Assembly: GCF_900115675.1 (NCBI RefSeq)
Contig: NZ_FOXI01000002.1
Location: forward strand, 1-64,000
From: Halolamina pelagica
GTDB taxonomy: Archaea; Halobacteriota; Halobacteria; Halobacteriales; Haloferacaceae
Direction of reading: 5' to 3'
DNA length: 64,000 bases
Made by a program: the position numbers and the translations under genes. Below the pieces are notes generated by a model. The model was not told where the DNA came from. It ran no database searches and saw nothing but the letters and a program-made list of their open reading frames with translations. Of the stretch, positions 31,499 to 42,746 are shown piece by piece; position 1 is the first letter of the stretch; each line of letters opens with the position of its first letter.

Positions 31499-31588
31499 AA
31501 CTGCCTCCTCGGTTTCGACCGCTAGGACTCTCGCCCGCGCCGGGATCAGCGTCGAGGCGTCACTCAGACGACGGGGGATCTCAGGATC

Positions 31589-31602
31589 CCAAACAGTATT
31601 GG
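31589..31602. promoter_or_regulatory. box A of a bipartite palindromic element
   Basis: CCAAACAGTATTGG, with CCAA/TTGG arms. The 22 bases from 31589 are identical to those from 35191, ahead of the Fe-S subunit gene. A second half-similar box lies 52 bases downstream. It is the probable upstream activating site of the small-protein/SUOX-fold/mobA operon. Confidence 0.65.
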
Positions 31603-31641
31603 TACCCGAACGATACCCCGAACGCCTCGTCGTATCTGTCC

Positions 31642-31654
31642 CCAACAGTATTGG
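31642..31654. promoter_or_regulatory. box B of the bipartite element
   Basis: CCAACAGTATTGG, one base shorter than box A, with its end 52 bases after that of box A. Exactly 39 bases separate it from the ATG of a 12-codon upstream ORF, the same distance as at the other copy (35257 to 35297). Both sites are followed by TACGTGTATG 32 bases on. Confidence 0.65.
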
Positions 31655-31734: not shown

Positions 31735-31956
31735 GTGAGTAGTACCGACGAATGGCCTCTCGGTATCCCCGACATCGGAACGAATGAGTTGAACACGAGG
31801 GTTGATGCGGAGCTGACAAATCCGCAAGAGGGACTCGAAAAGACCGACGACGACACGGAGCTGGGGCTCGAGATAACCGAGGACCCACAACGGGTCTCGC
31901 GCGGTGAATTGTCGGACGACGAGGCGGCGACTGAGGTCGTGCGAGGTGACGCCTGA
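31735..31956 (+). CDS. small acidic protein related to the N-terminal extension of the Fe-S subunit
   Basis: A 73-residue protein starting at GTG 31735 with a GGAGGTG Shine-Dalgarno 7 bases upstream. IPDIGTNELNTRVDAEL ... DDDTELGLEITEDPQRVSRGELSDDE aligns by eye with residues about 11-60 of the Fe-S subunit encoded at 35371 ([17 protein letters not shown] ... [12 protein letters not shown]), roughly 45% identical. It has no cysteines. The stop overlaps the next start (TGATG). It may be a free-standing version of a docking or maturation domain, or what remains of a second Fe-S subunit. Function is unknown. Confidence 0.6.
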   Translation: MSSTDEWPLGIPDIGTNELNTRVDAELTNPQEGLEKTDDDTELGLEITEDPQRVSRGELSDDEAATEVVRGDA

Positions 31957-32456
31957 TGGATGGCGGTATCGTCTTTGACGGTGACGGCCCCAACGAGCTT
32001 GCGGACGCGCCGACGAGCTTTGTCATCGCCAGCGACGGTGAGCAGCGTGCGGTTGACGCCGCCGCCTGCGCCGACCGGTCGACCGTCACCCGCGAGTACA
32101 CGATCCGCTGTGCGACCGGCGAGCGGACGACCGCCACCTGGACCGGCATCCCGGTGACCGACCTGCTGAATATCGTTGACGCCCCGGCGGAGACGACGCA
32201 CTTCCGGGTCGAAAGCGAAGACGGCTACGCCATCTGTGTCCCGGTCGCCGATGCACTCGACGGGGTCGTCGCGTTCGAACGCGACGGCGAACAGCTCCGG
32301 GAGACGCGGCCGTACGGTCTGCGGTTCCTGGCCGGCGATATCGACGGCGAGCGACTGGTGAAAGGGATCCACCGGGTCGACCTGCTCAGCCTCCCGGCGG
32401 ATGCTGATCCGGACCGGTACGAAACAGTGACCCTCGACAACCCCGAGTACGAATGA
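31956..32456 (+). CDS. SUOX-fold molybdopterin-binding protein
   Basis: The 166-residue protein corresponds to the sulfite-oxidase-type molybdopterin domain: YTIRCATGERTTATWTGIPVTDLLN carries the conserved cysteine that ligates Mo and the W-x-G-x-P-x-x-x-LL core, followed by GYAICVPVADAL and YGLRFLAGDIDGERLVKGIHRVDLL. No signal peptide, heme or dimerisation domain is present, so it is a minimal cytosolic member of the family. Neighbours, mobA and a Mo respiratory enzyme, suggest cofactor handling or a partner oxidoreductase. It overlaps both neighbouring genes by a few bases. Confidence 0.75.
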   Translation: MDGGIVFDGDGPNELADAPTSFVIASDGEQRAVDAAACADRSTVTREYTIRCATGERTTATWTGIPVTDLLNIVDAPAETTHFRVESEDGYAICVPVADALDGVVAFERDGEQLRETRPYGLRFLAGDIDGERLVKGIHRVDLLSLPADADPDRYETVTLDNPEYE

Positions 32457-33109
32457 GCGACGAGCACAACCAGAACGGTCGCGACTGTCGGGCCGTGTCG
32501 GTCACGCCCATCGTGCTCGCTGGCGGCGGGAGTGAGCGCTTCGGGCCCGTGCCGAAATCGCTGGCGACGGTCCAAGATCAGCCGATGATCGCTCGCATCG
32601 TCGACGCGGTGCATGCCGCGACCGGTCGGACGCCGGTCGTCGCCGTCGGGGATCCGGAGAAGCAGTCCGTCGTCGACCCGGCCCTCTCGTCGTCAGTCCG
32701 CTATCGGTACGATGTCGAGTGGGGACGCGGCCCGCTCGCGGGGATCGCGGGAGCGATCGGTGCGGTCGAGACGGACCCCGTGTTCGTCTGCGGATGTGAT
32801 ATGCCGCAACTCGATCCCTGCGCGGTCGAGTGGCTCGTCGGCGAATACGCAAGCCGACCCGGCGCCGCGATCATCCCGGCGAACCACGCCGGCCACCACC
32901 CCTTGCACGCAGTGTACGACTGTCGGGCGCTGGAACGGTACTGTTCGCAGCAACCTTCCGACCTCCGCCTCCAGCGGCTCGTGTCCGAACTCGATGCGAC
33001 GGTCGTGCAGGACCAAGACGCCCCCGACCGTGTCCCGCTGACCCGTTCGGTCTCGAACACGAACACGCAGGCCGAACTGTGTGCCGTGCGAACGCGGATC
33101 AGCGACTGA
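32453..33109 (+). CDS. mobA: molybdenum cofactor guanylyltransferase (MobA-like)
   Basis: It attaches GMP to Mo-molybdopterin to make the bis-MGD cofactor of DMSO-reductase-family enzymes. The 218-residue protein has the nucleotidyltransferase signature LAGGGSERFGPVPKSLATV at residues about 20-40, VGDPEKQSVVD, DVEWGRGPLAGIAGAIGAV, and the metal-binding CGCDMPQLDP motif near 105. The gene's start overlaps the stop of the SUOX-fold gene by 4 bases. A MobA beside the catalytic subunit fits a dedicated cofactor supply for the downstream enzyme. MocA-type specificity cannot be excluded. Confidence 0.85.
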   Translation: MSDEHNQNGRDCRAVSVTPIVLAGGGSERFGPVPKSLATVQDQPMIARIVDAVHAATGRTPVVAVGDPEKQSVVDPALSSSVRYRYDVEWGRGPLAGIAGAIGAVETDPVFVCGCDMPQLDPCAVEWLVGEYASRPGAAIIPANHAGHHPLHAVYDCRALERYCSQQPSDLRLQRLVSELDATVVQDQDAPDRVPLTRSVSNTNTQAELCAVRTRISD

Positions 33110-33186: not shown

Positions 33187-35025
33187 CTAAGTGGCTACGG
33201 TTCCGTCGAACAGTGCCTCGAAGAGTTTCTTTTCCGCTGCCCGAAGGTGCTGGGTAAACGTCGTCTGTGAGATATCCATCATCGACGCGACTTCCTCTCC
33301 GCTGTGCTCACGGGGCCAATCGAAGAACCCTGCAAAATGGGCGGTCCGGACTGCCTCTCGTTGTCGCTCCGTCAACGCGGCTGTAAGCTGTTTTCGGAAG
33401 GCGGCTTCAGTCTGTACCTCCCGCTCGTGCTCTCGCTGTGCGATCAGCGTCAACCCATCGTAGGTCGTCCGAAGCGCGTTGACAACACTTCGAATATCGT
33501 TCGAACTAGCTACCTGTGCAACCAGATGCCCAGTGGTTCCAGTAATCGAAAACGACTCGATGCTTACTCCGTACTGCGCTAACGTCGTGACGATCGACGG
33601 CTCGTCGACCGATAACCGGTAAAGCGCCCTGTCTTCGTACGTGTGAACGTGCTGTACGGTACTGATAGCCTCGGTATCGGCCGCGTACTCGGTGACGACA
33701 TCCGGCTCAGGCTGGGTGATGGTAACGTACTGGATTCGGTTCTCGTTCCCGTCGTCGACGACGTCCTCTACTGTGACCGTACAATCGAGCTGTGCTGCCA
33801 TCGTTGCAAGCGGTTCGTCGACTGCTGTCAACCGGAACTCCAATTCGGTTACGCTGTCGGAGATGAGTGTTTGCTTGCTCTCGACGGCGCTGATGGCGTC
33901 TGCGATCGTTTGACCGAGTTCGATGAACACGTCCCGTTCGATGAGGTCGAACGCGTGGGGGTCGCTGGTGACGACGCCGAGGACGCCATACTCCGCCTCG
34001 TGGTAGGTGAGCGGAACGACGACACACCGTTGTTTGTCGACTGTCTCCAATTGATCGGCCTCAACGTCGGTAAACACTGGACTCTGTTCCTCTAGTGCCT
34101 GCTCGACCGGTGTCGGATCCGCCTTACACATCTCTTCGACATGGTTCTCGAGCGACCCCATATCGCTGCCGGCCCAAGAGTTCGGGCTAACCGTGCCGTC
34201 GACGAGTCCTTGACTACCGATCCAAGCCACATCGAAGAGGTCCGACGAAGCGAACTGCTCACAGACGGCAGCCTCGATCTCCTCGCGTGTCGAGGCGGCG
34301 ACAAGTTCGCGGTTGATATCGCGAAGCACTTGATTAGTGTTGTTCAGTACCGTCAATCGCTTGTTCTGGTCCTCGATACGCATTTCGTGCTCCTTTCGTT
34401 CGGTGATATCGCGCTCGATCGCGACGTAGCGATTCACCTCTCCGTCCTCGGTGATCGGAGCGATCGTCGCGTCTATCCAGAGTAATTCTCCCGATTTCCG
34501 GCGGTTCGTCAGTTCGCCTTCCCAGACTGACCCTGACGTGATTTGTCCCCAGAGGTCCGCATAAAAATCGTCGCCGTGTTTCCCGGATTGCCAGAGCCGA
34601 GGATTCTCTCCGATCACCTCGTCCCGCTCGTACCCAGTGACCGACTCGACAGCCGGGTTTGCGTACTCGATCGTGCCGTCGGAGTCGGTGATAAAAATCG
34701 CGTGACCGGCGTGTTCGATCGCCTTCCGAAAGCTCTGGAGGCGCTCGTTTACCGTCCGAAGCTCCGTCTTGAGGGCGTCTTCGTCGCTGACGTACTCTGA
34801 GAGGTAGTACACTGTCAGCAACGTGAGCGCGCTTACAACGAGGCCGGGAAGCTCTTCAAGCCCAGTGCTCGCCGTCTGTACGGTGAGCAGTTGTCGAAGC
34901 GTCATAAAGGCAAACAGTAGCATCAGGAAGCCGAAGCGGCGATCGCGGGTGCGAGCGAGTAGTAGAATCGAATAACCGACGCCTAGCAGTCGCAGTCCGA
35001 TCGAGAGGGCAATAATCCAGTTCAT
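33187..35025 (-). CDS. bat-type membrane sensor/transcription regulator (PAS-GAF-HTH_10)
   Basis: A 612-residue one-component regulator. Residues 1-75 hold two to three hydrophobic helices (SIGLRLLGVGYSILLLA, FGFLMLLFAFMTL), then a coiled linker, a PAS domain (about 100-215; FITDSDGTIEYANPAVESVTGYERDEVIGE), a GAF-like domain (about 235-390), the bacterioopsin-activator-specific region, and a C-terminal HTH_10 (LTERQREAVRTAHFAGFFDWPREHSGEEVASMMDIS...). DmsR of Halobacterium, which activates the DMSO reductase operon, has this C-terminal type. It lies between two promoters sharing CCAAACAGTATTGG boxes and is the best candidate for their activator. An alternative is redox or oxygen sensing through PAS. 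Confidence 0.88.
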   Translation of the reverse strand: MNWIIALSIGLRLLGVGYSILLLARTRDRRFGFLMLLFAFMTLRQLLTVQTASTGLEELPGLVVSALTLLTVYYLSEYVSDEDALKTELRTVNERLQSFRKAIEHAGHAIFITDSDGTIEYANPAVESVTGYERDEVIGENPRLWQSGKHGDDFYADLWGQITSGSVWEGELTNRRKSGELLWIDATIAPITEDGEVNRYVAIERDITERKEHEMRIEDQNKRLTVLNNTNQVLRDINRELVAASTREEIEAAVCEQFASSDLFDVAWIGSQGLVDGTVSPNSWAGSDMGSLENHVEEMCKADPTPVEQALEEQSPVFTDVEADQLETVDKQRCVVVPLTYHEAEYGVLGVVTSDPHAFDLIERDVFIELGQTIADAISAVESKQTLISDSVTELEFRLTAVDEPLATMAAQLDCTVTVEDVVDDGNENRIQYVTITQPEPDVVTEYAADTEAISTVQHVHTYEDRALYRLSVDEPSIVTTLAQYGVSIESFSITGTTGHLVAQVASSNDIRSVVNALRTTYDGLTLIAQREHEREVQTEAAFRKQLTAALTERQREAVRTAHFAGFFDWPREHSGEEVASMMDISQTTFTQHLRAAEKKLFEALFDGTVAT

Positions 35026-35190
35026 ACGGTCCGTGTCTGCCTCCGACAGCTGAGGGACCCTCGGCCGCGGGGCAGTCGTCGACTTCGACTCGACCAGGTC
35101 ATAGTCGAAGGTAACTGGTCTCTTTGAATAATCCCTGTGGTCGGTGTTTCGCTTGAGACGCGCCCCGATTTCCCCCCAACCGAGCCCGAC

Positions 35191-35204
35191 CCAAACAGTA
35201 TTGG
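35191..35204. promoter_or_regulatory. box C of the bipartite element
   Basis: CCAAACAGTATTGG again, identical with box A and the 8 bases after it. Located 167-180 bases before the ATG of the Fe-S subunit gene. Confidence 0.65.
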
Positions 35205-35244
35205 TACCCGAAATATGGGGTATCTCTCCGGGTTCGGCCCGGTT

Positions 35245-35296: not shown

Positions 35297-35374
35297 ATGA
35301 ACTCCAGGACTAACCGACCGACGTGGGAGCAAGTGGTCGTCGACGAGACGATCGGTGACGGGTGGTGGCGATGA
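35297..35374 (+). CDS. 25-codon upstream ORF overlapping the Fe-S subunit start
   Basis: ATG 35297 opens [20 protein letters not shown] and ends GDGWWR with its TGA (35372-35374) overlapping the ATG of the Fe-S gene (ATGA). Such overlap implies termination-reinitiation coupling. No ribosome-binding sequence as strong as that of the other operon is seen before the Fe-S gene, so coupling could matter. The translated peptide has no known match that I recognise. Confidence 0.4.
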
Positions 35375-36402
35375 GCACCACAGACGACGACACGCTTCCC
35401 GGTATTCCGAACGTCGGGAAAGCTGATCTCGACGCGATGGTCGAGAACGAGCGACCCGATCCACGAGAGGAGCTCGCAGACGTCGAGGCGGACACGGATC
35501 TCGGCGTCGCGATGGCCGAGGACGCACAGCGCGTCGCACGCGGTGAACTCACCGGCGACCAGTACTGGGAAAAGTACGATGAAGCCGCGGCCGACGAGTT
35601 CGGCGAGGCGTATCAGGAGACGCCGAACCCCGCGGTTGACGCCGGCGACCAGACTGTCTCGACGGGGACGGCCGAGTCGTTGAGCTGTGCGGTCGGTTCG
35701 ATGGACACCGTTGCGGCGGAGTCCGCGCAGGTTGAAGGGGAGGAGCCCGACGGTGGGATCGGCGCGGGCGACGAGAAGTGGGGGATGGTGATCGACCTCC
35801 AGAAATGCGTCGGCTGTGACTCGTGTACGGTCGCGTGTAAGTCCGAAAACCGGACGCCACCCGGCGTTTCGTACAACGTCGTGATGGAAGAAGAACACGG
35901 CGAGTTCCCGAACGTCACGCGGACGAACGTGCCTCGGCCGTGTATGCAGTGCGATAACCCGCCTTGTGTACAGGTGTGTCCGGTCTCGGCGACGTACAAG
36001 ATGGACGACGGCGTGGTCAACATCGACTACGACCGGTGTATCGGTTGTCGATACTGCATCATTGCTTGCCCGTACGGCGCGCGGTACTTCGACTTCGGCG
36101 AAAACTACGACGACGAGGTCGACGAGGCCGGCGAACTGACCAGCCCCGAGTACGGCGTCGACCGCGGACCGCGCGAGGAGGGAAAATCGCCGATCGGCAA
36201 CGTTCGCAAGTGCAGTTTCTGCACCCATCGGTTAGAGCGCGGCGAAGAGCCGGCGTGCGTCGAGACGTGCGTCGGCGACGCCCGGAACATGGGCGACCTC
36301 GAGAACCCCGACAGCGACGTCGCACAGATGGCCGATTCGTCACGCGCGTTCCAACTGAAAGAAGACGAAGGGACTGACCCCAACGTCTACTACCTCAAAT
36401 AG
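35371..36402 (+). CDS. four-cluster Fe-S subunit of Mo oxidoreductase (TtrB/DmsB-like)
   Basis: A 343-residue electron-transfer subunit. An unusual acidic N-terminal extension of about 130 residues precedes a ferredoxin-like module with four [4Fe-4S] cysteine groups: [50 protein letters not shown], and [20 protein letters not shown]. No signal peptide is seen; such subunits are exported with the Tat-bearing catalytic partner. It is first in the ordered set Fe-S, NrfD-type anchor, Mo catalytic subunit, the ttrBCA order. The start at 35371 follows a coupled upstream ORF; an in-frame GTG lies 9 bases earlier. Confidence 0.9.
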
Positions 36403-36406
36403 ACCG

Positions 36407-37675
36407 ATGTCGACACAGAGTTCACGGTTCGAGTTCGATCCGGGGTTCGAAGACGACCGGCTACGCGTCGCCTGGTACGCGGTCGTCGGCGTACTCGTCG
36501 CTGTCGGCGCCTACGCGACGTATCTCAGGATCACGGGGGGGATGGCAACCACGAACCTCACGAGTATCGTCCCGTGGGGGGCGTGGGTCGCCTTCTACAT
36601 CTACTTCGTCGGCCTCTCCGCCGGTGCGTTCCTCGTGAGTACGATGGCCAACGTCTTCGAGGTCGAGGGGATGCACAGGATCGATCGCGACGCGCTGTTT
36701 GCGGCCATCATCAGCATGGCGGTGGCGCTGCTGTTCGTCTGGATCGACCTCGGACGGATGGACCGGATGTACTTCCCGTTTATCTGGCGCCAACTGACCT
36801 CCGCACTCTCGTGGGAAGTGCACGCCTACGTGGCCTATATCGGGATTCTGGTCACGGAGCTGTATTTCTCGATGCGGATCGACCTCGCACGGATCGCCGA
36901 GCGCACCTCGGGACTTCGACAGACGTTCTACACGGCGCTCGCGCTCGGCCGACTGGACACGAGCGAGGGGTCCCGGTCGTTCGACCAGCGCTGGCTCAAG
37001 CGGGCCGGCATCGTCGGGATCCCATTGGCGATCTTCATGGTCCACGGCGGGACCGGCGTGCTGTTCGCCGTCTCGAAGGCCCGTCCGTACTGGAACAGCG
37101 GGCTGTTCCCGGTTATCTTCGTCATCTCGGCGCTGCTCAGCGGGACCGCGCTCGTGATGGTGGTCTACGTGCTTCGGACCCGGCTGTTCGACGGCGACTC
37201 GGTCGACCCGGACCTGCTGGATCGACTCGCACAGCTGTTGATCGGCTTCATTATCGTCGACGCCGCCCTGACCGCCATCGAGACGTTCATCGCGATCGCC
37301 AGCGTCCACCCTCACGAGATCGAGACCTGGCAGGTCATCATGTACGGCCCGATGTCGTGGTCGTTCTGGTGGTTCATGGTTGGATTCAGCTGGGTATTCC
37401 CGATGGTCTTGCTGACCAAGAAAGCGTGGCGGCGCACGCCGTCGGTGATGGTACTCGCCGGACTGAGCGTCGTCATCGGGATCATCGCGGTTCGGTTCAA
37501 TATCGTCGTCCCGGCACAGATCATGCCGGTGATGGAGGGGCTCCCCCACGGGGCGTACTTCCCGACGCTGGTCGAGTGGGGGACGAGTATCGGTATGATC
37601 GGTGTCGGCCTGCTGTTGTACACGCTCGGTGCGGAGACGCTGCCGTTGACGCCACTTACCGGAGGTGACCACTAA
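36407..37675 (+). CDS. NrfD/PsrC-type membrane subunit
   Basis: A 422-residue quinol-interacting membrane subunit with about nine hydrophobic helices. Family features include the first-helix TSIVPWGAWVAFYIYFVGLSAGAFLVSTMANVFEV segment (WG-x3-A-x-Y-x2-F-x-G-x-S-G motif), and later polar residues within helices. It is translated 4 bases after the Fe-S subunit and its stop overlaps the catalytic gene start (TAATGA). It would pass electrons from menaquinol to the Fe-S subunit. Confidence 0.88.
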   Translation: MSTQSSRFEFDPGFEDDRLRVAWYAVVGVLVAVGAYATYLRITGGMATTNLTSIVPWGAWVAFYIYFVGLSAGAFLVSTMANVFEVEGMHRIDRDALFAAIISMAVALLFVWIDLGRMDRMYFPFIWRQLTSALSWEVHAYVAYIGILVTELYFSMRIDLARIAERTSGLRQTFYTALALGRLDTSEGSRSFDQRWLKRAGIVGIPLAIFMVHGGTGVLFAVSKARPYWNSGLFPVIFVISALLSGTALVMVVYVLRTRLFDGDSVDPDLLDRLAQLLIGFIIVDAALTAIETFIAIASVHPHEIETWQVIMYGPMSWSFWWFMVGFSWVFPMVLLTKKAWRRTPSVMVLAGLSVVIGIIAVRFNIVVPAQIMPVMEGLPHGAYFPTLVEWGTSIGMIGVGLLLYTLGAETLPLTPLTGGDH

Positions 37676-40600
37676 TGAGTGCTGATGATTCAGGCGAGGA
37701 CGGCGCAGGCGTATCGCGTCGTGACTTCGTCAAAGCGGCCGGGAGTATCGGAGTCATCGCGGCGGCGAGCAACGCCGCGGTTGACGTTGACCTCGACGAC
37801 CTGTGGACCGACGACGAGCAGCACTACGTCGGGGACGACTACGGGGAGTACGGTGCGAGCGACGTGATCCACACCACCTGTGGACAGTGTAACACGTTCT
37901 GTCCGATCAAGGTCCAGCTCGCGGACGGGAGCGGTACCGGCGAGTACAGCTCGCTCGTCCGGAAGCTCGCCGGGAACCCGTACTCGTTCCTCAACACGCA
38001 GCCGTTCTCACAGGTGCCCTACGAGAGCGATCCGGCGGACGTGGCGATGGGCGACGTCGAGGGGAGCGGCGACGTTGACACCGACCGCTGGTCGCTCTCG
38101 GGCGGCCGGATATGCCTGAAAGGGCAGGCAGGGATCCAGACGGCCTTCGACAGCTACCGTGTCCGCCAACCGATGAAACGGGTCGGTCCGCGCGGCTCGG
38201 GCGAGTGGAAGACCGTCTCGTGGGACCAGGTGATTCGAGACATCGTCGAGGGCGACGACGACCTCGGCCACCCCGGACTCAAGGACATCCGGGGATACGC
38301 CCCACAGGAGACGGTGATGAGCGACTGGGAGGCCGTCCAGAACGGCGAGCTGTCCAAGTCGGCGTTCGACGAGAAGTACGCCGACGACCTCATCGACACC
38401 GACCACCCCGACCTCGGCCCGAAGACCAACCAGATCGTCGATATCGGCGGGTTCCGCCGGAACTTCATCCGGAACCGGCTCTGGCACCAAGGGTTGGGAT
38501 CGATAAACAGCATCCACCACGCCGGAACCTGCGGCGTCTCGAGCGTGATGGGCAACGTGCGCTCGCACGCCGCCCAAAAGAAGCGGCAGTACCCCGACAT
38601 CGAGAACTGCGAGTACCTCATCGTCTGGGGGACCAACCCGATGGTCGCCAACAAGGGGCCGACGTGGCTCGCCCCGAAGCTGACGAACGCCATCGAGGAC
38701 GGGATGCGGATGGATGTGGTCGACCCGCGCCTGTCGAAGACTGCCGAGAAGGCCGACACGTGGGTCCCCGTCGAACCCGGCGCGGACGGAGCGCTGGCGC
38801 TCGGGATGGCGCGGTGGATCATCGAGAACGGCCGCCACGACCTGACGTACCTCCAGAACCCCTCACAGTCGGCCGCGAGCGACGACGACGAGCCCACCTG
38901 GAGCGACGCGTCGCACCTCGTCCTCGTCGACGAGGAGGCGGGGCCGAAGGCGCGAGCTAGCGATCTCGGGCTCGTTCCGGAGGACGCCGACGCCGCGGAC
39001 GACTTCGTCGCCGTCGACGCCGCGACGGGCGAGCCGCGCCCCGCGAGCGAGGTCGACACGGCGGTTCTCGACGTCGACGTGACCATCGACGGAACGGCGG
39101 TTCGAAGCGTCTGGAGCCAGTACCGCGAGCGCGTCTTCGAACACACGATCGAGGAGTACGCCGAGATGGCCGGCGTGTCGGCCGAAAAGATCGCCGAGAT
39201 CGCCGACGAGTTCACCAGTCACGGCAAGCAGGCGGCGATCATGGCCTACCGCGGCCCGGCGAAACACACCAACGGGTTCTACAACACGCGGGCGATCGCC
39301 ACCCTGCAACACCTCATCGGGAACTACGACTGGAAGGGCGGCCAGATCACGCCATACGCGGGCTACGACACCATGTCCGGGCGATACGAGCTCGGATCGG
39401 TCCCGGACGGGCGCTCCCCGTGGGGGATCCCCCTGCTCCGCGGCGGCGTCAACTACGAGGACACCTCGCTGTTCGACCGCGACGACGGCTACCCGGCGAA
39501 GCGGCCGTGGTTCCCCGTCGCGCCGCCGCAGGCGACCCAAGAGCTCTACGGTAGCGCCGCCGACGAGTACCCGTACGGCGTCGAGGCGCTGTTCATCCGG
39601 CCGTACTCGAACAATCACGTGATGGCGATTGCCGGCGGCGACGAGATCCCGGCGATCCTCAAAGACACCGACACGATCCCGCTGATCGTCGCCTCGGACA
39701 CGGTCATCGGCGAGACGAGCCAGTACGCCGACTACATCCTGCCCGAGCCGACCTACCTCGAACGATGGGAGAACTTCGGGACGTACCCGAACAAGCGGCT
39801 GGCCGACGAGAAGATCAGCCAGCCAGCCGTCTCTGTCGTTCCCAACGCGCGTCCGTTCGAAGACGTGCTCATCGAGCTGTGGTCGGAGCTGGACCTGCCG
39901 GGCGTCGGCAAGGACGCCATCCCCGACGCGGACGGCGACCTGTGGCCCCTCGAACAGGCGGAAGACTTCTACCTGAAGCTCGCGGCGAACATCGCGTACA
40001 GTCGCGATCCCGTCGCGGACGCGAGCGAGGACGAACTGCGGGTGTTCCGCGAGAGCCACGAGAACGGCCTCGGCGATCAGTTCGCCCTCGATCGCTGGCG
40101 GGCGGCCGTCACCGACGAGGAATGGCCGAAGGTCGTCACGGTGTTGAACCGGGGCGGCCGCTTCGAGGAGCCGACCGAGGGCTACGACGAAGCGTTCGCA
40201 GAGCACGGTCACGGGTACGACTACGCCGAGCGCGGAGACGACTCGAACGCCTACGACGGCGAGCACATGCGGTACAAGCTCGAGTCGCGGGTCGACTTCT
40301 ACAGCGAGGTCGTCCCGAACGGGAAACACTCCTTTACCGGCGAGCGGTTCGACCCGCTTCCGAAGGTCGACGACGTCGAGCACTACGACGGGACCGTTCA
40401 GGCCGCGGTGAGCGGCGACGACAACCGAGAGCGCCCGCTCCGGCTGATCAACTGGAAGCCGCGGACGCAGGGGATGCACCGTACCCAGAACAGCCCGTGG
40501 CTCCGCGAGACGCGCCCGGAGAACCCCGTGTGGATCAACCCCCACGACGCCGAGGAGCGCGGGATCGAGAACGGGGACGACATCGTCCTCGATGCAGGAC

Positions 40601-40932
40601 GCAAGAGCGTCGACGCGGTTGCGATGGTCACGAGCGGTATCCGCCCCGGCGTCGTCGGTTCGATGTGGGGATGGGGTCGGACGGGAGACGGTGCGACGGC
40701 CGAGACGATCGACGGCGAAACGCGGCCGGCGGTCGAGGCCGACGGACACAGCGACTACCAGTTCGACGAGCCGATGACCGAGGAGGCCGGGTACGCGAAG
40801 GGGCGCGACGCCGGCTTTGCGATCAATCACGTCCAGCCGTTAGATGAGGAGCTCGGCGATACCGGACTCTCGGACCTTGTTGGTGGAAGCAACGCGCAGT
40901 ACGACGCCTTCGTCGACGTGGAGCTGAGGTGA
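37675..40932 (+). CDS. molybdopterin oxidoreductase catalytic subunit (TtrA/PsrA-like)
   Basis: A 1085-residue DMSO-reductase-family enzyme exported by Tat (VSRRDFVKAAGSIGVIAAAS). A [4Fe-4S] site is CGQCNTFC (Cys69, 72, 76) plus the later GGRICLKGQAG Cys. The Mo ligand is apparently Cys286 in HHAGTCGVSS, as in the polysulfide, thiosulfate, arsenate and tetrathionate branches rather than the serine of DMSO reductase or the aspartate of NarG. The C-terminus has the MGD-binding HRTQNSPWLRETRPENPVWINPHDAEERGI region. Length is close to tetrathionate reductase TtrA. The electron acceptor cannot be fixed from sequence; tetrathionate or another sulfur/arsenic/selenium oxyanion is plausible. Confidence 0.88.
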   Translation: MSADDSGEDGAGVSRRDFVKAAGSIGVIAAASNAAVDVDLDDLWTDDEQHYVGDDYGEYGASDVIHTTCGQCNTFCPIKVQLADGSGTGEYSSLVRKLAGNPYSFLNTQPFSQVPYESDPADVAMGDVEGSGDVDTDRWSLSGGRICLKGQAGIQTAFDSYRVRQPMKRVGPRGSGEWKTVSWDQVIRDIVEGDDDLGHPGLKDIRGYAPQETVMSDWEAVQNGELSKSAFDEKYADDLIDTDHPDLGPKTNQIVDIGGFRRNFIRNRLWHQGLGSINSIHHAGTCGVSSVMGNVRSHAAQKKRQYPDIENCEYLIVWGTNPMVANKGPTWLAPKLTNAIEDGMRMDVVDPRLSKTAEKADTWVPVEPGADGALALGMARWIIENGRHDLTYLQNPSQSAASDDDEPTWSDASHLVLVDEEAGPKARASDLGLVPEDADAADDFVAVDAATGEPRPASEVDTAVLDVDVTIDGTAVRSVWSQYRERVFEHTIEEYAEMAGVSAEKIAEIADEFTSHGKQAAIMAYRGPAKHTNGFYNTRAIATLQHLIGNYDWKGGQITPYAGYDTMSGRYELGSVPDGRSPWGIPLLRGGVNYEDTSLFDRDDGYPAKRPWFPVAPPQATQELYGSAADEYPYGVEALFIRPYSNNHVMAIAGGDEIPAILKDTDTIPLIVASDTVIGETSQYADYILPEPTYLERWENFGTYPNKRLADEKISQPAVSVVPNARPFEDVLIELWSELDLPGVGKDAIPDADGDLWPLEQAEDFYLKLAANIAYSRDPVADASEDELRVFRESHENGLGDQFALDRWRAAVTDEEWPKVVTVLNRGGRFEEPTEGYDEAFAEHGHGYDYAERGDDSNAYDGEHMRYKLESRVDFYSEVVPNGKHSFTGERFDPLPKVDDVEHYDGTVQAAVSGDDNRERPLRLINWKPRTQGMHRTQNSPWLRETRPENPVWINPHDAEERGIENGDDIVLDAGRKSVDAVAMVTSGIRPGVVGSMWGWGRTGDGATAETIDGETRPAVEADGHSDYQFDEPMTEEAGYAKGRDAGFAINHVQPLDEELGDTGLSDLVGGSNAQYDAFVDVELR

Positions 40933-40938
40933 TCAGAG

Positions 40939-41670
40939 ATGCCCACGCACACAGACGACGACCGCGACGAGGTGGCGGTGGCGACGGCCCGGGCACGGCT
41001 GTACGGGCTGTTAGCTGCGACCTTCGACGGCGAGGCCGAGACGACCGCTGCCGCGCTCGATCGAGGGGTCTTCGCGGCCGTTGCCGAGGTATTCCCGATC
41101 GACATCGAGACGGCTGACCTACGTGGCGACGACTACGACGCTGACTCGCTGGCCATCGGCTACGACAACCTGTTCGTCGTTCCTGGGACCCACTACGTCC
41201 CGCCGTTCGCGTCCGCTCACGCGATCGATCCGAGCGAGGCGTTCGAGTCGGACTCCAGGTATCACACCGCCGGGGAGGCCGGCGAACTCCTCGGCGATCC
41301 AGCCGCCGATATGGCACAGCTGTACGCCGCCGCCGAGTTTACGCCGGAGCGCGGCGACGACATCCCCGACCACATCGCTGCATGCTTCGAGTTCATGCGT
41401 GCGCTCTGCGAGCGAGAGGCGGCTCTCCTCGAAAACGACGGAACTGAAGCGGACCTCGACGCAGTCCGCGGGCTTCAGGCCCAGATGCTCTCCCGCCTGG
41501 GTTGGATCGACCGGTTCGAAGAGGCCGTTGCGAGCAGCGACACGGTCGAAGGCGTCTTCGCCGCAATCGCTCGTCTCACACGGACGTTCACCGCATGGGA
41601 CGCGCAAGAAGCCGTACAGACTGATCTGCAGCCGTCCGAAACCACATCCGCAGACCTACCCGACCAATGA
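40939..41670 (+). CDS. TorD/DmsD-family chaperone for the Mo enzyme
   Basis: A 243-residue all-helical protein of the TorD family that binds Tat signal peptides and prevents export until the Mo cofactor is loaded. The family core segment YDNLFVVPGTHYVPPFASAH near residue 80 corresponds to Y-x2-L-F-x2-P-x6-P-P, followed by the helical C-half (ACFEFMRALCEREAALL). It follows the catalytic subunit by 6 bases and its last codons overlap the start of the Mrp ATPase gene (CAATGA). The acidic C-tail is haloarchaeal. Confidence 0.83.
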   Translation: MPTHTDDDRDEVAVATARARLYGLLAATFDGEAETTAAALDRGVFAAVAEVFPIDIETADLRGDDYDADSLAIGYDNLFVVPGTHYVPPFASAHAIDPSEAFESDSRYHTAGEAGELLGDPAADMAQLYAAAEFTPERGDDIPDHIAACFEFMRALCEREAALLENDGTEADLDAVRGLQAQMLSRLGWIDRFEEAVASSDTVEGVFAAIARLTRTFTAWDAQEAVQTDLQPSETTSADLPDQ

Positions 41671-42746
41671 CAACCACAGATATCTCAGACGCCGACCTCC
41701 GTGATCGCCTCCGCGCCGTCGACGACCCGGCGCTCGATACAGACATCGTCACTGCCGGACTCGTCAACGAGATCACCGTCAACGACGGAACCGCCGCCAT
41801 CGAGCTCGCACTCGGTGCGCCGCACGCTCCGGACGAGTCCGCCATCGCGGAGCGCGTCCGTGAGGTTGCCGACGAAGCGGGGATCGACGTCGAGCTCTCG
41901 GCGAACGTGCCGCTGTTCGATTCCGCCGAGTCGTCGGTTCTGCCCGGCGTCAAGAACGTGATTGCCGTCGCCTCCGGAAAGGGCGGCGTCGGCAAAAGCA
42001 CCGTCGCCGTCAACCTCGCCGCCGGCCTCGCCGATCGCGGGGCGAACGTCGGGCTGTTCGACGCTGACGTGTACGGGCCGAACGTCCCGCAGATGCTCGG
42101 CACCGACACCGATCCCGACGTGAGGACCGTCGACGGCGAAGACCGAATCGAACCGCCCACCGCCCACGGGCTCAAGCTGATGAGCGTCGGACTGATGATC
42201 GAGGAGGACGACCCGGTCGTCTGGCGCGGTCCGGTCGCACAGGACACACTCACCGACCTGTTTGGCGACGTTTCGTGGGGAACGCTCGACTACCTCGTCG
42301 TGGATCTCCCGCCTGGGACTGGGGATGTCCAGCTGACGGTGCTACAGCACTTACCCGTCACGGGGACTGTCGTGGTCACGACACCGCAGTCCGTCGCCGT
42401 CGGCGACACCCGTCGGGGTATCGAGATGTTCGGTGAGTACCAGACCAACGTGTTGGGTGTCGTCGAAAACATGAGCGGCTTCGTCTGCCCTACTTGCGGA
42501 GACGCCCACGAGATCTTCGGTGAAGACGGTGGCCGATCGCTGGCCGGCGAAGTCGACGTCCCCTACCTCGGCTCGCTTCCGCTGGATCCAGCGGTTCGTG
42601 CCGGCGCCGACGACGGCGAGCCGATCGTTCGTCAGGACGACGCGAAGTCCGCGGAAGCATTCCAGGACTTAGCGGCGAGGGTCGCGAACAAAGTCGGCGT
42701 GCTGCGACGCCATCAACGCCAGACTACTACCGTCGGTGATAATTGA
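41667..42746 (+). CDS. Mrp/NBP35-family Fe-S carrier ATPase with MIP18 domain
   Basis: A P-loop ATPase that assembles or carries Fe-S clusters. Residues 1-85 form the MIP18/DUF59 domain (DPALDTDIVTAGLVNEITVND). The deviant Walker A is GKGGVGKST near residue 110, followed by GLFDADVYGPNVPQMLG, Walker B DYLVVDLPPGTGD, and the CPTC pair (GFVCPTCGDAHEIFG). In this operon it probably serves cluster-rich subunits. It overlaps the TorD gene by 4 bases. The TGA stop abuts the end of an IS-like element, so the element may have changed the last residues. Confidence 0.9.
   Translation: MTTTDISDADLRDRLRAVDDPALDTDIVTAGLVNEITVNDGTAAIELALGAPHAPDESAIAERVREVADEAGIDVELSANVPLFDSAESSVLPGVKNVIAVASGKGGVGKSTVAVNLAAGLADRGANVGLFDADVYGPNVPQMLGTDTDPDVRTVDGEDRIEPPTAHGLKLMSVGLMIEEDDPVVWRGPVAQDTLTDLFGDVSWGTLDYLVVDLPPGTGDVQLTVLQHLPVTGTVVVTTPQSVAVGDTRRGIEMFGEYQTNVLGVVENMSGFVCPTCGDAHEIFGEDGGRSLAGEVDVPYLGSLPLDPAVRAGADDGEPIVRQDDAKSAEAFQDLAARVANKVGVLRRHQRQTTTVGDN

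Follow-up and report, generated by a model that had tools for sequence, protein, structure and literature searches.

The 64,000-nucleotide stretch of Halolamina pelagica DNA analysed here (the window) carries a 73-codon open reading frame (ORF) directly ahead of a gene for a SUOX-like protein, and the product resembles the N-terminal extension of a respiratory Fe-S subunit encoded further downstream. The question raised by this locus is whether the small gene encodes a working, free-standing version of that extension, as a sequence-only reading had proposed, or something else. Our main reading, to which we assign a probability of about 0.85, is that the ORF is a decaying stub of an Fe-S subunit gene, and that the exported Fe-S subunit has the intact module, which is built of three helices, as its partner. 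The features concerned are the following.

31588..31654, + strand: copy of the promoter region, CCCAAACAGTATTGGTACCCGAA (31588-31610) plus a second AACAGTATTGG element (to 31654); 23-nt identity with 35190-35212
31735..31956, + strand: 73-codon ORF with a truncated Ferredoxin_N module, read as a 5' stub left from a type-I gene for the Fe-S subunit and now decaying (similarity, neutral dN/dS, least conserved body, tree nesting)
31825..31923, + strand: PF16947-matching part of the stub, profile positions 12-44 of 65, helix 3 missing (profile match, model)
31956..32456, + strand: SUOX-like (Oxidored_molyb) protein, whose gene mostly closes such operons at their 3' end (PF00174; dN/dS 0.21 against locus L122)
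32453..33109, + strand: MobA-like guanylyltransferase (NTP_transf_3 and MobA models)
33187..35025, - strand: PAS/GAF/BAT-HTH_10 regulator (profile match)
35190..35212, + strand: same promoter element, ahead of the Fe-S gene (23-nt identity; 18-mer match)
35371..36402, + strand: Fe-S subunit (DsrO/TtrB/ArrB-like) with fused module (profiles; residues 1-64, dN/dS 0.07-0.14)
35464..35607, + strand: functional Ferredoxin_N module, residues 32-79 of the Fe-S subunit (PF16947, 55.2 bits)
36407..37675, + strand: NrfD membrane subunit (profile match)
37675..40932, + strand: TtrA-like molybdopterin catalytic subunit with Tat motif (profile matches)
40939..41670, + strand: TorD/NarJ-family chaperone (PF02613)
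41667..42746, + strand: Mrp/ApbC-type Fe-S carrier (profile matches)

The ORF at 31735-31956 begins with GTG and is preceded by GGAGGTG. Its product has 73 residues and zero cysteines, as the sequence-only reading had described. The alignment of about 45% that had been judged by eye over residues 11-60 of the Fe-S subunit was reproduced by BLASTP over a slightly longer segment, residues 1-64 (29/64 identical, 45%, E 2e-14), and at the DNA level the ORF and the Fe-S gene were 73% similar across 89 nt. The Pfam profile PF16947 (Ferredoxin_N, gathering cut-off 25 bits) matched the 73-residue protein with 32.8 bits (profile 12-44 of 65) and the Fe-S subunit with 55.2 bits (profile 12-59). As both proteins exceed the cut-off, the extension corresponds to an already catalogued domain, and together with the E value these scores rule out chance similarity between the two. 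The faint matches that the 73-residue protein or PF16947 gave to unrelated proteins (L004, L021-L024) are probably chance hits. The ORF does not contain the full-length domain, as it covers only profile positions 12-44 and stops before helix 3 of the modelled module. The Fe-S subunit carries the domain N-terminal to a 4Fe-4S ferredoxin; the ORF, ending at 73 codons, does not. Among Pfam profiles, PF02613 (TorD/NarJ family) gave no match in the 73-residue protein. We class the window gene as an incomplete and decaying representative of a Pfam domain that was already known.

The distribution of the module was then examined. In a class-wide search, PF16947 was found above the cut-off in 147 of 292 Halobacteria genomes, and in a phylum-wide draw of 247 genomes the matches listed all fell within the window's own order. 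Bacterial relatives of the Fe-S subunit align only from residue ~93-137 on; since they start past the module, the extension lies outside the standard ferredoxin subunit, which upholds the earlier claim. Three arrangements were observed. In type I, seen in Ttr-like operons, module and Fe-S subunit form one fused protein (27 loci in addition to the window). In type II, a free module of 59-87 residues is encoded directly upstream of the catalytic subunit, usually overlapping it, and the Fe-S subunit of these operons has no extension; free modules in polysulfide-reductase-type operons replace the extension that is fused in tetrathionate-reductase-type operons. In type III, the module is followed by a linker, a twin-arginine motif and then a ferredoxin domain, with RR-x-x-x-K located 13-44 residues past the module in 36/36 proteins; the genes are mostly found beside NrfD and Mrp genes, without a Mo subunit. 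When the N-terminus of a type-II catalytic subunit was used as a query, which makes the search blind to the module, 30 loci were obtained and a free module was present immediately upstream in 30/30, all polysulfide-reductase-type operons. Free versions do co-occur with Fe-S/NrfD/Mo operons, which the sequence-only reading had suggested inspecting. The free modules are under strong purifying selection, with a median dN/dS of 0.08 over 50 pairs that are mutually non-independent, and 344/311/1447 differences at codon positions 1/2/3. The modules are homologous, and elsewhere they show both purifying selection and obligate linkage. The suggestion that the module exists both fused and alone accordingly holds in haloarchaea, as judged from the 30/30 operons and this dN/dS, but not for the gene in the window. 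Two variants were noted in passing: one locus (L028:6921-7460) has two different free modules (87 and 82 residues) in tandem ahead of one catalytic subunit, and two others (L036:6574-8202, L196:8064-9722) encode solitary module-RR-ferredoxin proteins in an operon without NrfD, Mrp or a Mo subunit.

Concerning the surroundings of the ORF, the 18-mer AAACAGTATTGGTACCCG occurs exactly twice within the window (31591-31608 and 35193-35210; 0 expected by chance), once preceding the stub ORF and once preceding the Fe-S gene. The common promoter element that had been noticed before both genes is thus real. Of 24 type-I loci, 17 carry its core, AACAGTATTGG, in front of the Fe-S gene, and the AAACAGTATTGGTACCCG/AACAGTATTGG element is a candidate site at which the neighbouring BAT/HTH_10 regulator would bind. 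The gene of this regulator lies on the opposite strand and separates the stub and Fe-S transcription units. The stop codon of the stub overlaps the start codon of the SUOX-like gene (TGATG). Several other Mo operons end with the SUOX-like gene and mobA, which follow Mrp or TorD on the 3' side, indicating that the pair usually forms the operon tail. In the window the pair is instead located upstream, behind a copy of the Fe-S gene promoter and first codons. A locus from another genus of the same family (L118) contains the BAT, FeS, NrfD, TtrA, TorD, Mrp and SUOX-like genes in that order, with the SUOX-like gene downstream of Mrp, and the small gene is absent. The SUOX-fold protein itself (166 residues, stand-alone) is conserved in a number of Mo operons of haloarchaea, where its gene neighbours that of Mrp, that of MobA or both.

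We compared four orthologs of the stub, those of the window, Halorubrum distributum JCM 10118 (L122), Halolamina rubra (G005/L121) and a congener (G004); genes in the relatives were called by a simple codon-usage script, and their exact starts are uncertain. The small ORF was present in 2 of the 24 named type-I loci. Its pairwise dN/dS values (Nei-Gojobori, 42-73 codons in four orthologs, with wide error) were 1.16 for window-L122, 1.08 for window-G004 and 0.77 for window-G005, and 1.63, 0.96 and 0.83 for the remaining three pairs. None of the six pairs departs from neutral placement of the same substitutions; the window gene evolves neutrally. Between the window and L122, the SUOX-like, MobA, FeS, NrfD, TtrA, TorD, Mrp and BAT genes gave values of 0.06-0.22, and 0/200 neutral placements were equally low. 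Across comparisons, these eight neighbours and the fused domain ranged from 0.06 to 0.48, the fused module itself (FeS residues 1-64) giving 0.14 for window-L122 and 0.07 for window-G005. The H. rubra stub has lost its domain core through an in-frame deletion of 93 nt. In G004 the stub motif is lost and the SUOX-like gene is truncated, the small ORF still persists, and the genome retains no PF16947 match. DNA identity to the window in the three orthologs was 86-92% in the promoter, 67-86% in the ORF body and 94% in the last 33 nt in all cases. The stub locus has thus preserved its promoter and the junction at which the ORF overlaps the start of the SUOX-like gene, and the ORF body is the least conserved part. 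We also noticed that in H. rubra the BAT regulator is split across two frames (L025:8029-9866) and that a 4-nt deletion near the SUOX-like start shifts the frame of that gene; each may reflect real decay or an assembly error.

These data bear on two other explanations of the ORF. One is that it is kept as a leader, in which translation started at the Shine-Dalgarno sequence feeds the overlapping SUOX-like start, so that length and frame matter and the residues do not. The TGATG/TAATG overlap, the near-identity of the last 33 nt relative to the body, a deletion in H. rubra that is a multiple of three, and zero stops in four orthologs would all agree with this. However, the chance that no stop would arise in three lineages is ~0.14 (0.48 x 0.42 x 0.72), and selection for the open frame is consequently not convincing; moreover, the 4-nt deletion in H. 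rubra shifts the SUOX-like frame, and the ORF persists in G004 despite the truncated SUOX-like gene. We regard a maintained leader as unlikely. The original proposal of a working free-standing docking or maturation module is highly improbable: although the protein scores above the Pfam cut-off, has its own promoter and Shine-Dalgarno sequence, keeps its frame open in four orthologs and has intact free-standing homologs in other haloarchaea, its dN/dS is neutral in every ortholog pair, its core is deleted in H. rubra and its motif lost in G004, helix 3 is absent, it is missing from 22 of 24 type-I loci, and a conserved fused copy is already encoded in the same operon. For this gene, the neutral dN/dS and the core deletion point to the degenerate copy, free of purifying selection, that the sequence-only reading had itself named as the outcome that would refute its proposal.

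The 73-residue gene is best read as a decaying 5' stub ahead of the SUOX-like gene and mobA. When 112 modules were placed in a tree, the stub nested in the fused type-I group, which is separated from the free family by a 100/100 branch; within that group it lay near FeS genes of other genera and not beside the window's own FeS gene, its exact place being unsure because the alignment has few columns. This position led us to reject a recent duplication of the window's own FeS gene, and suggests that the stub is not a fresh local duplicate and that its origin may be older or horizontal. An origin by one deletion that joined the start of FeS to the end of Mrp was also rejected, as the tail of the stub is unlike Mrp C-termini. 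The stub is probably the leftover 5' end of a haloarchaeal Fe-S subunit gene, comprising the promoter and the first ~64 codons, which a rearrangement may have placed ahead of the SUOX-like gene and mobA, an order of events that we infer from gene order. The preservation of the promoter and of the last 33 bases with the stop/start overlap suggests that the remnant, now decaying, would today at most bring transcription and coupled translation to the SUOX-like gene.

As for the intact module, every type I and type III locus also encodes an Fe-S subunit, as do 24 of 25 type II loci, the remaining one being a truncated contig. By contrast, a Mo subunit was present in only 1 of 12 type III loci. The fusions and the constant presence of the Fe-S subunit identify this subunit as the probable partner. 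In type III the module precedes the twin-arginine motif and, if the motif works, would stay on the cytoplasmic side. An AlphaFold2 model of the free module displayed three helices with moderate confidence (core pLDDT ~84); that of the full Fe-S subunit (pLDDT 40) was too low to show docking. A Foldseek search of the module against the PDB gave no match at E <= 0.001, and the best hit of the module profile against PDB sequences had an E of 0.1. A docking or maturation role for it is plausible. The intact module, small and composed of three helices, would partner the exported Fe-S subunit, fused or free depending on the operon type, holding or presenting this subunit in the cytoplasm during cluster insertion and assembly before Tat export, and the Mrp and TorD proteins of the same operons would work alongside it. 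From gene order and Tat topology, we put slightly less than even odds on a function that precedes export, be it in inserting the clusters, in assembling the Fe-S subunit or in controlling its export. More tentatively, it may be a haloarchaea-specific factor similar to redox enzyme maturation proteins (REMPs) for exported Psr/Ttr-type Fe-S subunits, supplied in cis or in trans and gating export until the clusters are placed. Supply in cis would correspond to modules fused N-terminally or ahead of the Tat signal, and supply in trans to the free first gene of psr operons.

The main alternative would make the intact module a structural part of the exported reductase complex, as a subunit or a domain, and not a maturation element. 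The fusions with the Fe-S subunit seen in type I and type III and the obligate nature of the type II gene are compatible with a structural role. On the other hand, the type III module precedes the twin-arginine motif and should remain cytoplasmic, the free form lacks its own signal, and for the best-known relatives, among them Thermus PsrB (2vpz) and ArrB (6cz7), the similarity is confined to parts outside the module. We consider a structural role doubtful, and favour the cytoplasmic partner of the Fe-S subunit described above.

We finally compared the stub and the module with known systems. The name of PF16947, which both the 73-residue protein and the Fe-S extension match above the cut-off, refers to a ferredoxin N-terminal region and not to a free gene, and the window ORF is a partial (12-44) and unselected member. 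The free Psr/Phs-type modules (L027, L028, L030, L068-L087, L161-L190) are, like the stub, small and cysteine-poor, share the core motif TxLGxxMAxDAxRVxxGELS with it, and are likewise encoded by the first gene of a Mo/Fe-S/NrfD operon. In contrast to the stub, they possess helix 3 (EFHEKYHExVxxEFG), are followed by a MopB catalytic subunit in 30/30 cases rather than by a SUOX-like gene, and have a median dN/dS of 0.08 against 0.77-1.63 for the stub; the stub also falls outside their family in the tree, on the type I side of the 100/100 branch, with the reservation on its exact place given above. TorD, DmsD and NarJ (PF02613) resemble the module in being small helical proteins from the same operons. 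These redox enzyme maturation proteins are thought to be active before Tat export. They differ from the module in sequence, with no match, and in length (~200 residues against ~75), and nearly all type I and type II operons also encode their own TorD.

The haloarchaeal psrABCD genes (PMC6176080) and the Ttr-family thiosulfate reductase (PMC5437934) include the same catalytic, Fe-S, NrfD-type and chaperone genes. The main text of the former lists psrA-D, sulfurtransferases and bacterioopsin-activator regulators in the psr operon without a small gene (PMC6176080). Free proteins from Halomicrobium, Halobiforma and Halorubrum plasmids bear the NCBI product name '4Fe-4S ferredoxin N-terminal domain-containing protein'. 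Our literature search for the PF16947 accession or this product name found no mention, nor did we find a described function of the module; as far as the literature was searched, the free/fused pattern across haloarchaea has not been described. The window gene alone is ordinary, a decaying fragment. Every Psr-type operon sampled, however, contains a conserved small gene omitted from the operon description in the main text of PMC6176080, and the fusion partner together with the type III position ahead of the twin-arginine motif makes a role before export directly testable in tractable haloarchaea. Finally, residues ~211-241 of the TtrA-like subunit (window 38305-38397; DWEAVQNGELSKSAFDEKY) resemble helices 2-3 of the module. 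A DWEAVQNGELSKSAFDEKY-type stretch occurs at the same position in 24 type-I catalytic subunits, each with a weak score (iE 0.0006-0.6).
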